Part shown: piece by piece, positions 20,758 through 22,062 of the stretch | Layout of the letters: every line of letters begins with the position of its first letter | Position numbering within the stretch: the first letter of the stretch is position 1 | Origin: Micromonospora sp. NBC_01740 | GTDB lineage: Bacteria; Actinomycetota; Actinomycetes; Mycobacteriales; Micromonosporaceae | Length of the DNA: 64,000 bases | Assembly (NCBI RefSeq): GCF_035920365.1 | Contig: NZ_CP109150.1 | Span: forward strand, 124,001-188,000 | Direction: 5' to 3' | Translations under genes and position numbers: made by a program | Notes under the pieces: model-generated | Seen by the model: only the letters and a program-made list of their open reading frames with translations | The model's database searches: none | What the model was told of the DNA's origin: nothing

Positions 20758-20785
20758 TGGACCTTCCCGCACAACCGGGTACGCT
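20758..20785 (+). promoter_or_regulatory. Promoter of the DAHP synthase leader
   Basis: TGGACC (20758-20763), a 16-base spacer, then TACGCT (20780-20785). The expected start of transcription, seven bases after the -10, falls at about 20792, next to the GTG of the leader peptide at 20793. That fits a leaderless transcript. Confidence 0.6.
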
Positions 20786-20792
20786 GGGCCGC

Positions 20793-20852
20793 GTGACGCG
20801 TTCGTATCGATGGTTTAGGCAGCCGGCTCGCACGCCGGTGACTTCACCATGA
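20793..20852 (+). CDS. Leader peptide rich in aromatic codons (Tyr, Trp, Phe)
   Basis: A 19-codon reading frame, MTRSYRWFRQPARTPVTSP (GTG start), ends at TGA 20850-20852. It has Tyr, Trp and Phe within four codons (TAT-CGA-TGG-TTT, 20805-20816), precedes an intrinsic terminator and is followed by the gene for the first enzyme of aromatic amino acid synthesis. I infer a regulatory peptide whose translation speed reports charged tRNA-Tyr/Trp/Phe. No ribosome site is visible, consistent with leaderless initiation. An analogous leader peptide upstream of aroF has been described in Corynebacterium; this one is recognised by pattern only. Confidence 0.8.
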   Translation: MTRSYRWFRQPARTPVTSP

Positions 20853-20927
20853 TCTGACGTCACCACATTCGAGCCGGCCGGGCAGGAGCTCTCGTTCCTG
20901 CCCTTTTGCGTACGAGCAGCCGGCTCG
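20822..20927 (+). promoter_or_regulatory. Attenuator: competing pairings around the aroF-type terminator
   Basis: Three 9-base elements: A GCCGGCTCG (20822-20830, inside the leader frame just after the aromatic codons), B CGAGCCGGC (20870-20878) and C GCCGGCTCG (20919-20927). B is perfectly complementary to both A and C. The terminator hairpin (20880-20903) lies between B and C. A ribosome stalled at Trp/Phe would cover A and free B. How that prevents termination is not evident from simple pairing, so the exact antiterminator remains unresolved. Confidence 0.65.
20880..20907 (+). terminator. Intrinsic terminator of the leader
   Basis: Perfect 8-bp stem GGGCAGGA (20880-20887) / TCCTGCCC (20896-20903), eight-base loop, followed immediately by TTTT. 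One of the few hairpins in this window with a T-tract, placed between the leader peptide and the structural gene. Confidence 0.85.
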
Positions 20928-20973
20928 ACCTGGGCACCGGCCCCGGGGCACGGTCGGCGGAAGGATTCCCACC

Positions 20974-22062
20974 GTGACCACCCCGGAGACCGTTCGGGTC
21001 AGCGATCAGCGGATCGACCGTGTCGTGCCGCTGACCACCCCGGCCCTGCTGCACCACGACCTGCCCCTCGACGACACGCTCGCCTCGGCCGTGCTGGCCG
21101 GGCGACGCGCGGTCGGCCGGGTGCTGGACGGCGCCGACGACCGCCTGCTGGTGGTGGTGGGCCCGTGCTCGGTGCACGACCCGGCCGCCGCCCTGGAGTA
21201 CGCCCACCTGCTCCGCGACGCCGCCGCCCGGGTGGCCGACGACCTGCTGGTGGTGATGCGGGTCTACTTCGAGAAGCCGCGCTCGACGGTGGGCTGGAAG
21301 GGCCTGATCAACGACCCCGGGCTGGACGGTTCCGGCGACGTCAACACCGGCCTGCGTACCGCCCGGGCGCTCCTGCTCGACGTGCTGCGCCTGGGGCTCC
21401 CCGTCGGCTGCGAGTTCCTCGACCCGATCACCCCGCAGTACATCGCCGACACGGTGGCGTGGGGCGCGATCGGCGCGCGGACGGTGGAGAGCCAGGTGCA
21501 CCGGCAGCTCGCCTCCGGCCTGTCGATGCCGATCGGCATGAAGAACCGCCCGGACGGCAGCATCGGCACCGCCGTGGACGCCATCCGCGCCGCCGGCGTA
21601 CCGCACGTCTTCCCCGGCATCGACGTCTCCGGCACGCCGGCGATCCTGCACACCCGGGGCAACGCGGACGGGCACCTGGTGCTGCGCGGCGGCGGCGGGC
21701 GGCCGAACTACGACGCGGAGTCGGTGGCCGGCGCCCTGGAGCTGCTGCGGGCGGCGGGCCTGCCCGAGCGCGTGGTGATCGACGCGAGCCACGCCAACAG
21801 CGGCAAGGACCACCGCAACCAGCCGCGGGTGGCCGCCGACGTGGCCGCCCAGCTCGACGCCGGCCAGCGCGGCATCGTCGGGATCATGCTGGAGAGCTTC
21901 CTGCTCGCCGGCCGCCAGGACCTCGACCCGACCCGCGAGCTGACGTACGGCCAGTCGGTCACCGACGCCTGCATCGGCTGGGACACCACCGAGGAGGTCC
22001 TCAGCCACCTGGCCGCCGCCGTCCGCACCCGCCGCCGTACCCCGGCCCCCGCACCCGCCTGA
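20974..22062 (+). CDS. 3-deoxy-7-phosphoheptulonate (DAHP) synthase, class I
   Basis: 362 aa, GTG start with GGAAGGA upstream. Type I DAHP synthase signatures: 'LLVVVGPCSVHDPAAALEYAHLL', 'VMRVYFEKPRSTVGWKGLINDPGLDGS', 'GCEFLDPITPQYIADTVAWGAIGARTVESQVHRQLASGLSMPIGMKN' and 'VIDASHANSGKDHRNQ'. It condenses phosphoenolpyruvate and erythrose-4-phosphate, the first step to chorismate and Phe/Tyr/Trp. It lies 120 bases behind the aromatic leader peptide and terminator, so expression is probably controlled by aromatic amino acid supply. Which product inhibits the enzyme cannot be read from sequence. Gene name would be aroF, aroG or aroH depending on convention. Confidence 0.95.
   Translation: MTTPETVRVSDQRIDRVVPLTTPALLHHDLPLDDTLASAVLAGRRAVGRVLDGADDRLLVVVGPCSVHDPAAALEYAHLLRDAAARVADDLLVVMRVYFEKPRSTVGWKGLINDPGLDGSGDVNTGLRTARALLLDVLRLGLPVGCEFLDPITPQYIADTVAWGAIGARTVESQVHRQLASGLSMPIGMKNRPDGSIGTAVDAIRAAGVPHVFPGIDVSGTPAILHTRGNADGHLVLRGGGGRPNYDAESVAGALELLRAAGLPERVVIDASHANSGKDHRNQPRVAADVAAQLDAGQRGIVGIMLESFLLAGRQDLDPTRELTYGQSVTDACIGWDTTEEVLSHLAAAVRTRRRTPAPAPA

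Follow-up and report, generated by a model that had tools for sequence, protein, structure and literature searches.

A conserved aromatic-codon leader with alternative RNA pairings precedes the type I DAHP synthase gene in Micromonosporaceae and beyond

Results

The DAHP synthase locus and its leader

The window, by which we mean the whole 64,000-nucleotide stretch of Micromonospora sp. NBC_01740 DNA analysed here, carries a type I DAHP synthase gene whose product scored 470.8 bits against TIGR00034 (cut-off 173.2 bits) and also matched Pfam DAHP_synth_1. DAHP synthase controls the flow into the aromatic amino acids and into the aromatic natural products of actinomycetes. A PhoX-like protein is the divergent neighbour of the locus. 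The original prediction had placed upstream of this gene a 19-codon leader with Tyr-Arg-Trp-Phe, two mutually exclusive 9-base pairings (A:B and B:C) and an intrinsic terminator with TTTT. These elements were recovered (Table 1). The frame and its control codons are in place, segments A and C are each a perfect complement of segment B, consensus and folding both predict the terminator, and the profile matches identify the gene that follows as the first of aromatic amino acid synthesis. The leader stop and the start of the gene are separated by 121 nt.

Table 1. Features of the leader and DAHP synthase region in the window
Feature	Positions	Strand	Basis
-10-like box TACGCT, 7 nt upstream of the leader GTG	20780-20785	+	sequence; TANNNT survey of 148 loci
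Leader ORF, 19 codons and TGA, VTRSYRWFRQPARTPVTSP (VTRSYRWF...); GTG 20793-20795, TGA 20850-20852	20793-20852	+	sequence; kept in 30/30 genus and 59/60 other family loci
Control codons TAT CGA TGG TTT (Tyr-Arg-Trp-Phe); TAT 20805-20807, TGG 20811-20813, TTT 20814-20816	20805-20816	+	sequence; codon survey of 148 loci
Segment A (=1), GCCGGCTCG, 8 nt past the first base of the Phe codon	20822-20830	+	matched changes with B
Segment 2, GCCGGTGAC, alternative partner of A	20834-20842	+	matched changes with A; fold
Segment c, GTCACC; its partner GGTGAC (20837-20842) lies on the other side of the leader stop codon	20859-20864	+	fold
Segment B (=3), CGAGCCGGC, partner of A or C	20870-20878	+	matched changes; modelled folding
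Intrinsic-terminator-like hairpin, one nt past B; stem of 10 pairs 20880-20903, TTTT 20904-20907	20880-20907	+	consensus; folding
Segment C (=g), GCCGGCTCG, second copy of A, downstream of the terminator	20919-20927	+	matched changes with B
GGTCGGC (segment D), then GGAAGGA (likely Shine-Dalgarno)	20952-20965	+	sequence
Type I DAHP synthase (aroFGH family), 362 aa, GTG start	20974-22062	+	TIGR00034; Pfam DAHP_synth_1

The -10-like box stands at a nearly fixed distance from the leader. A TANNNT hexamer lies 6-9 nt upstream of an in-frame leader start in 147 of the 148 loci kept for analysis, as compared with 11 of 740 mononucleotide shuffles, and the spacing is exactly 7 nt in 110 of the 148. 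A consensus scan found no full sigma-70 site upstream of the leader in the window. Because of the fixed distance, the transcript is probably leaderless, as had been proposed, with its start at or beside the GTG. A type II DAHP synthase is encoded elsewhere in the same genome (L173, G000:C1:6848753-6850051, near 6.85 Mb). No aromatic leader was seen by eye in the approximately 400 bases upstream of its likely start; a TACGCT box lies 7 nt upstream of the likely ATG and suggests that this gene may be leaderless as well.

Conservation among actinomycetes

Within the genus, the enzyme was found in all 101 genomes searched and the leader in all 30 loci fetched. In the family, 92 of 121 genomes had an enzyme match, and 59 of the 60 loci fetched from other genera carried the leader, L050 being the one without it. 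At the level of the order, the enzyme matched in 173 of 298 genomes and the leader was present in 51 of the 59 further loci scanned (60 fetched); at the level of the class, the corresponding numbers were 60 of 296 genomes and 11 of 20 fetched loci. Loci were hand-picked from the match lists with the aim of covering different genera, and L101, which gave no tblastn match, was left out of the scan. By eye, the aromatic leader is present in 151 of the 169 fetched actinomycete orthologues. It is absent from all four loci of family f16, all nine of family f31, L071-L073 and L083. An automated criterion asked for a short ORF within 330 nt in which five residues include three aromatics. It was satisfied by 146 of the 169 loci and by 2.5% of dinucleotide shuffles; the 146 include L073, which we judged to lack a leader, and miss six leaders with two aromatics in five (L062, L065, L120, L166, L167 and L169). 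The stricter four-in-five criterion gave 62 of 169 loci against 0.06% of dinucleotide shuffles. Two genomes have three and four type I copies. Of the two copies fetched from each, one has the leader and one does not (L141 and L072 in one genome, L142 and L073 in the other).

For the analyses of pairing, codons, -10 boxes and masking, 148 loci were kept; those without a leader were dropped, together with three that have one, namely L012, in which the wrong ORF had been picked and a true leader exists, and L098 and L103, which have another geometry. The aromatic clusters differ among relatives (SYRWF, RYFWF, RYWRF, AYFWF, WYAYF, LYRWF and others). Tyr, Trp and Phe all occur in 136 of the 148 leaders and in 54 of the 64 representatives chosen at less than 85% identity. 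Codons for the products of the pathway are a mark of trp-type attenuators that this leader shares. All 148 loci end their control codons with Phe, partly by construction because in 11 of them the last aromatic is a Trp two codons past a Phe and we stepped back to that Phe; the codon is TTT in 145. Rare synonyms are preferred in the clusters (TTT 154 versus TTC 39; TAT 150 versus TAC 9). The DAHP synthase genes of the 30 genus loci have 278 Phe and Tyr codons, of which 128 are TTC, 150 are TAC and none is TTT or TAT. Past the cluster the frame varies, and leaders of the genus are 18, 19 or 21 codons long, yet the stop holds about the same place in the RNA, which argues that the RNA and the position of the ribosome are kept rather than the peptide tail.

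Alternative pairings of the leader RNA

The RNA from 20793 to 20930 folds at -73.7 kcal/mol as compared with -48.2 kcal/mol (sd 3.8) for 200 shuffles, none of which was as good (z = -6.7). Matched changes were quantified by comparing the pairing energy of each segment with the partner from its own species and with partners permuted among species, a test from which kinship is not fully removed. Across the 64 representatives, A:B gave -30.2 kcal/mol with its own partner and -24.2 kcal/mol with permuted ones, and none of 2000 permutations reached the own value. The same result, 0 of 2000, was obtained for B with the region of C and for A with the stretch that holds segments 2 and c. In Micromonosporaceae alone (14 representatives), the own fit was reached in 12 of 5000 permutations for A:B and 6 of 5000 for B:C, and the comparison pairs gave 684 of 5000 (B with the stretch past C) and 247 of 5000 (A with C). 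As the GCCGGC cores of A and B are invariant in an alignment of 22 Micromonosporaceae sequences, this support comes from the flanks. Lack of conservation of the leader codons or of the complementarity would have spoken against the original prediction; both are conserved. An aromatic-codon leader with alternative A:B and B:C pairings is therefore real and is conserved in Micromonosporaceae and beyond.

One group of relatives lacks the terminator; from the named loci, such as Amycolatopsis and Nocardia, we take it to be Pseudonocardiaceae- and Nocardia-like. In this group B:C alone was not significant, with 162 of 2000 permutations in the 64-representative test and 1581 of 5000 in the group test. 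The flank of C, paired with the region before the gene that holds segment D, fitted its own partner at -17.0 versus -15.2 kcal/mol for permuted partners. Over 20 representatives, 3 of 5000 permutations reached the own value, as compared with 4940 of 5000 in a shifted control. By eye, the matched changes between C and D in this group include CAAGCCG/CGGCTTG, GACCGGC/GCCGGTC and CGGACCG/CGGTCCG. The Nocardia-like members L092-L094 and L108 match with one mismatch. In Micromonosporaceae, the same own-versus-swapped test did not support C:D (4950 of 5000; 14 representatives).

The stretch past C, within 20930-20965, is a mirror of the sequence immediately ahead of the Shine-Dalgarno motif (for example CGCCGGC, or TCACCGGC in relatives). 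Perhaps it pairs with D as a hairpin loop in a pseudoknot. Many such loop:D matches were seen by eye in Micromonosporaceae, as in L047 (TCACCGGC with GCCGGTGA); the test was weak at 140 of 5000, with L056 and L057 left out for want of a Shine-Dalgarno match and with the Shine-Dalgarno sequence placed inside the gene in L055 and L160. In L061-L070, L113, L128 and similar loci, C falls by eye within or next to a local hairpin, GGCGGG...CCCGCC, whose two arms have changed together in L066 and L070 (GGACGGG...CCCGTCC).

A terminator-like hairpin that folds in every modelled state

Between 20650 and 21050, one terminator-like site was found, as compared with a mean of 0.3 (sd 0.6) in shuffles. In the E. 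coli trp attenuator, a leader peptide with control codons is followed by alternative hairpins and a U-tailed hairpin. The present locus has the same three components; unlike in the trp case, neither alternative helix uses a terminator arm. That the terminator is switched by A:B and B:C, as the original prediction implied, was not borne out by the model. Across the 42 terminator-bearing representatives the terminator stem had a probability of 0.98 in all four ribosome masks, and it was present in every modelled state of the window RNA. Folding under several ribosome states and a reading of the family by eye found no antiterminator that competes with the terminator for its bases, and in the folds of the 42 representatives and of the window no other segment occupies either of its arms. 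A candidate partner for the 3' arm of the terminator, AGGCAG at 20817-20822, was rejected since by eye it is not kept in L031, L034 and L051.

The terminator has no bases in common with A:B or B:C, and the arrangement thus departs from the textbook exchange of terminator and antiterminator. C lies downstream of the terminator, so B:C should be unable to form before the decision to terminate, and the T-run lies upstream of C, so B:C cannot itself end transcription. The gap between the A:B helix and the terminator stem is 0-1 nt in 31 of the 42 representatives, which suggests that contact between the two matters. By eye, a terminator-like stem is retained without the T-run in L176 (Dietzia aerolata), L088 and L168. 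As the stem outlives the T-run in these sequences, it may have some role besides termination. L088 and L168 were counted as terminator-less in the 64-representative pairing, Shine-Dalgarno exposure and stall analyses where included, and were left out of the terminator-less group in the C:D test and the masking model.

Response of the helices to the modelled ribosome

The stall modelling used the textbook value for the front of the ribosome, approximately 13 nt past the beginning of the A-site codon. Here A begins a median of 6 nt past the first nucleotide of the last Phe codon. For the 42 terminator-bearing representatives, a ribosome stalled at that codon lowered the modelled P(A:B) to 0.03 and left P(B:C) at 0.77. 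With the stall one codon earlier, often Trp, the values were 0.44 and 0.35, and three codons earlier, usually Tyr, they were 0.80 and 0.16. A ribosome at the stop codon, modelled as allowing A:B across it, gave 0.73 and 0.20; ribosome-free RNA containing C gave means of 0.51 and 0.41. Masking to +0 resulted in 0.79 and 0.17, and the switch fell at +9 to +12. Mutually exclusive helices that respond to the position of the ribosome, as in trp-type attenuators, are thus found in both the matched changes and the modelled masking. In the terminator-less group the modelled switch was weak, P(B:C) moving from 0.66 to 0.75.

The window RNA switches earlier than the average. Its modelled P(A:B) fell from 0.84 at +0 to 0.54 at +3, 0.22 at +6 and 0 from +9, so that Trp and in part Tyr should act there too. 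Without a ribosome it folds into A:B when it ends at the T-run and into B:C, not A:B, when it is extended to 20930. The proposal that the leader reads Tyr, Trp and Phe jointly is doubtful, as the mean Tyr stall keeps A:B at 0.80 and the stall at the last Phe leaves 0.03. Nearly all kept leaders have the three codons, and in the window Tyr is predicted to act partly. In the model the control codons are unequal: on average, a Phe stall turns A:B into B:C and a Tyr stall does not.

Occlusion of the Shine-Dalgarno sequence by the A:B/B:C switch was considered as an output and found no support in the model. Exposure did not differ between the modelled states (23 and 13 sequences, p = 0.89 each) among 36 of the 64 representatives, those that allowed automatic folding and automatic placement of a Shine-Dalgarno sequence with its start.

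Simpler leaders in proteobacteria

A wider set was obtained by searching named genomes with the enzyme of L172, a locus of a small-genome relative in family f8. Among the best 80 of at least 592 candidates, the automated criterion found a leader in 19 of 26 actinobacterial loci, with L182 doubtful, and in 33 of 54 others. Thirty of these 33 non-actinobacterial leaders, again among the best 80 of at least 592, are followed by a U-tailed hairpin whose 5' arm can pair with the 3' part of the leader; the remaining L219, L230 and L245 looked unlike and were left out of the hairpin analysis. Going by their record titles, the 30 belong mostly to Burkholderiales, Xanthomonadales and Rhizobiales. In L205, L213, L231, L228, L235 and others, aromatic-rich ORFs (e.g. 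SFYWYFSY, FYFWF) stand with U-tailed hairpins. Leaders such as L205, L213 and L231 resemble those of actinomycetes in being aromatic-rich and in occupying the same position ahead of a type I DAHP synthase gene. They differ in that the 5' arm of the terminator is itself the possible partner of the leader segment, in having longer T-runs and in having no separate segment C.

In the proteobacterial set of 30, the matching leader arm lies a median of 14 nt past the last aromatic codon and the stop lies at 39 nt. As the counterpart of B is the terminator's own 5' arm, A:B would be a plausible antiterminator there. The own-versus-swapped test with 15 representatives was not significant (495 of 5000). 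The strict -10 spacing was present in 11 of the 30 leaders, and none of ten checked had an Rfam match. Judged from sequence, many proteobacterial DAHP synthase genes appear to bear a simpler, textbook-like layout.

Discussion

The leader described here has a known relative before aroF of Corynebacterium glutamicum, a gene that we take to encode a type I DAHP synthase. The likeness, already pointed out in the original prediction, agrees with the published accounts: a review describes ribosome-mediated attenuation by the aroR leader, with Phe-Tyr-Phe codons, upstream of aroF (Neshat et al. 2014, as cited in PMC11802643), and the leader also appears in PMC4046766. According to the same review, limitation for Phe raises aroF transcription and the availability of Tyr does not (PMC11802643). 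Both systems place an aromatic-codon leader before a DAHP synthase gene in an actinomycete, and the likeness rests on the leader and the published reports rather than on RNA segments; the control codons are Phe-Tyr-Phe there and Tyr-Arg-Trp-Phe here. Two small-genome relatives, L098 and L103, have WRFYF leaders and, by eye, a terminator-like hairpin. It is a guess that they are perhaps Corynebacterium.

Other reported leaders share single traits. In Acholeplasma, uORFC-13-1 is given as a candidate, a short ORF before aroF that contains Phe codon(s) and is accompanied by what appears to be an intrinsic terminator (PMC8632094); it resembles the present leader in these traits and differs in belonging to another bacterial group, in its described ribosome-binding site and in that the account notes Phe alone. 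The Corynebacterium ilvB leader is reported to start one nucleotide from the start site and to use a three-hairpin control (PMC11857589; PMC11109978), which recalls the present arrangement; its antiterminator and terminator overlap, as those accounts give it, and its codons are for branched-chain amino acids, unlike here. The trp-type attenuator family is represented in Rfam by RF00513, according to PMC4046766. Rfam 15 gave no match in the window at the gathering score and none in 20 loci at E values up to 0.5. A 2005 survey of actinobacterial RNA regulators reports that it found no conserved RNA structures in operons for phenylalanine or tyrosine (PMC1262725), and in the accessible open-licence literature we found no description of the element in Micromonosporaceae or of the proteobacterial set.

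We consider it probable that a ribosome-mediated attenuator of the Corynebacterium aroR/aroF kind governs DAHP synthase, with the stalled ribosome as the ON state. Judging from the position of the promoter, transcription would begin at or next to the leader GTG and the ribosome would translate from a leaderless start. When the leader is read through and C has not yet been made, A would pair with B. A ribosome delayed at the final control codons, chiefly at the rare Phe codon TTT, would cover A with its front; B would then be free and, as suggested by the matched changes between species and by modelled folding, would pair with C once C is made. The covering of A is proposed to raise DAHP synthase expression, a sign taken over from the Corynebacterium reports; it agrees with the response to Phe and not Tyr that is reviewed for C. 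glutamicum and with the average codon positions. The candidate outputs are a change in how efficiently transcription terminates and an action of B:C on the message. In the fed state, the A:B helix flush on the terminator stem might raise the efficiency of termination, which is a guess because the stem probability is 0.98 in every modelled state; that B:C acts on the read-through message is likewise a guess. If a ribosome at the TGA keeps A from B, A:B would not mark the fed state. Other points that speak against this reading are that ribosome-free RNA containing C does not keep A:B firmly, that the window RNA would already lose A:B in part at a Tyr stall, that the modelled switch is weak in the terminator-less group and that the modelled exposure of the Shine-Dalgarno sequence is equal between states.

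The same attenuator could work with the opposite sign. By textbook trp logic, A:B would be the ON state, acting like an antiterminator while the ribosome waits at Tyr or Trp, and B:C would be the OFF state, formed because a ribosome at the stop codon keeps A from B. The proteobacterial leaders lend themselves to this reading, with the arm 14 nt past the last aromatic codon, the stop at 39 nt and the terminator 5' arm in the place of B, and so do the modelled Tyr stall, which leaves A:B intact on average, and the ribosome-free window RNA with C, for which B:C is the minimum-energy fold. However, with A a median of 6 nt from the last Phe and covered by a ribosome there, the conserved Phe codon would be useless or harmful, the response reviewed for C. 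glutamicum is to Phe rather than Tyr (PMC11802643), B:C cannot end transcription as the T-run precedes C, and the own-versus-swapped test of the 15 proteobacterial representatives was not significant. We hold the opposite sign to be unlikely.

Quite unlikely, too, is translational attenuation as in erm leaders, in which C would also pair with D, the choice between B:C and A:B would set the initiation of DAHP synthase and the terminator would be an addition in some lineages. It would account for the own-partner fit of the C flank with the D region in the 20 terminator-less representatives and for the matched changes seen there by eye, but C:D found no such support in the Micromonosporaceae test, carries a mismatch by eye in the Nocardia-like L092-L094 and L108, and leaves the modelled exposure of the Shine-Dalgarno sequence equal between states. 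Sensing by the ribosome could also be dispensed with altogether, if the short ORF and a constitutive terminator cut expression by a fixed factor or the ORF aids reinitiation. A terminator that folds in all modelled states is what this would predict; the aromatic codons, their rare synonyms, the fixed distance to A and the matched alternative pairings would then be left without a reason, and there is a gap of 121 nt between the leader stop and the gene. We regard it as very improbable.

The attenuator favoured here, with the stalled ribosome as ON, would provide a defined and readily testable control element for DAHP synthase in a large bacterial group. More speculatively, and with a good deal of doubt, it may belong to an ancient class of aromatic attenuators acting on the first enzyme of the shikimate pathway, common to many actinomycetes and, in a simpler form, to many proteobacteria, in which the switch has been uncoupled from the terminator and the rare Phe codon is the main trigger. 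The terminator would stand beside the switch in some lineages and be absent in the Pseudonocardiaceae- and Nocardia-like ones, replaced there by the pairing of C before the Shine-Dalgarno sequence. Such a natural series, with the terminator overlapping the switch, beside it or absent, would bear on how attenuators can change their output and keep their sensor.
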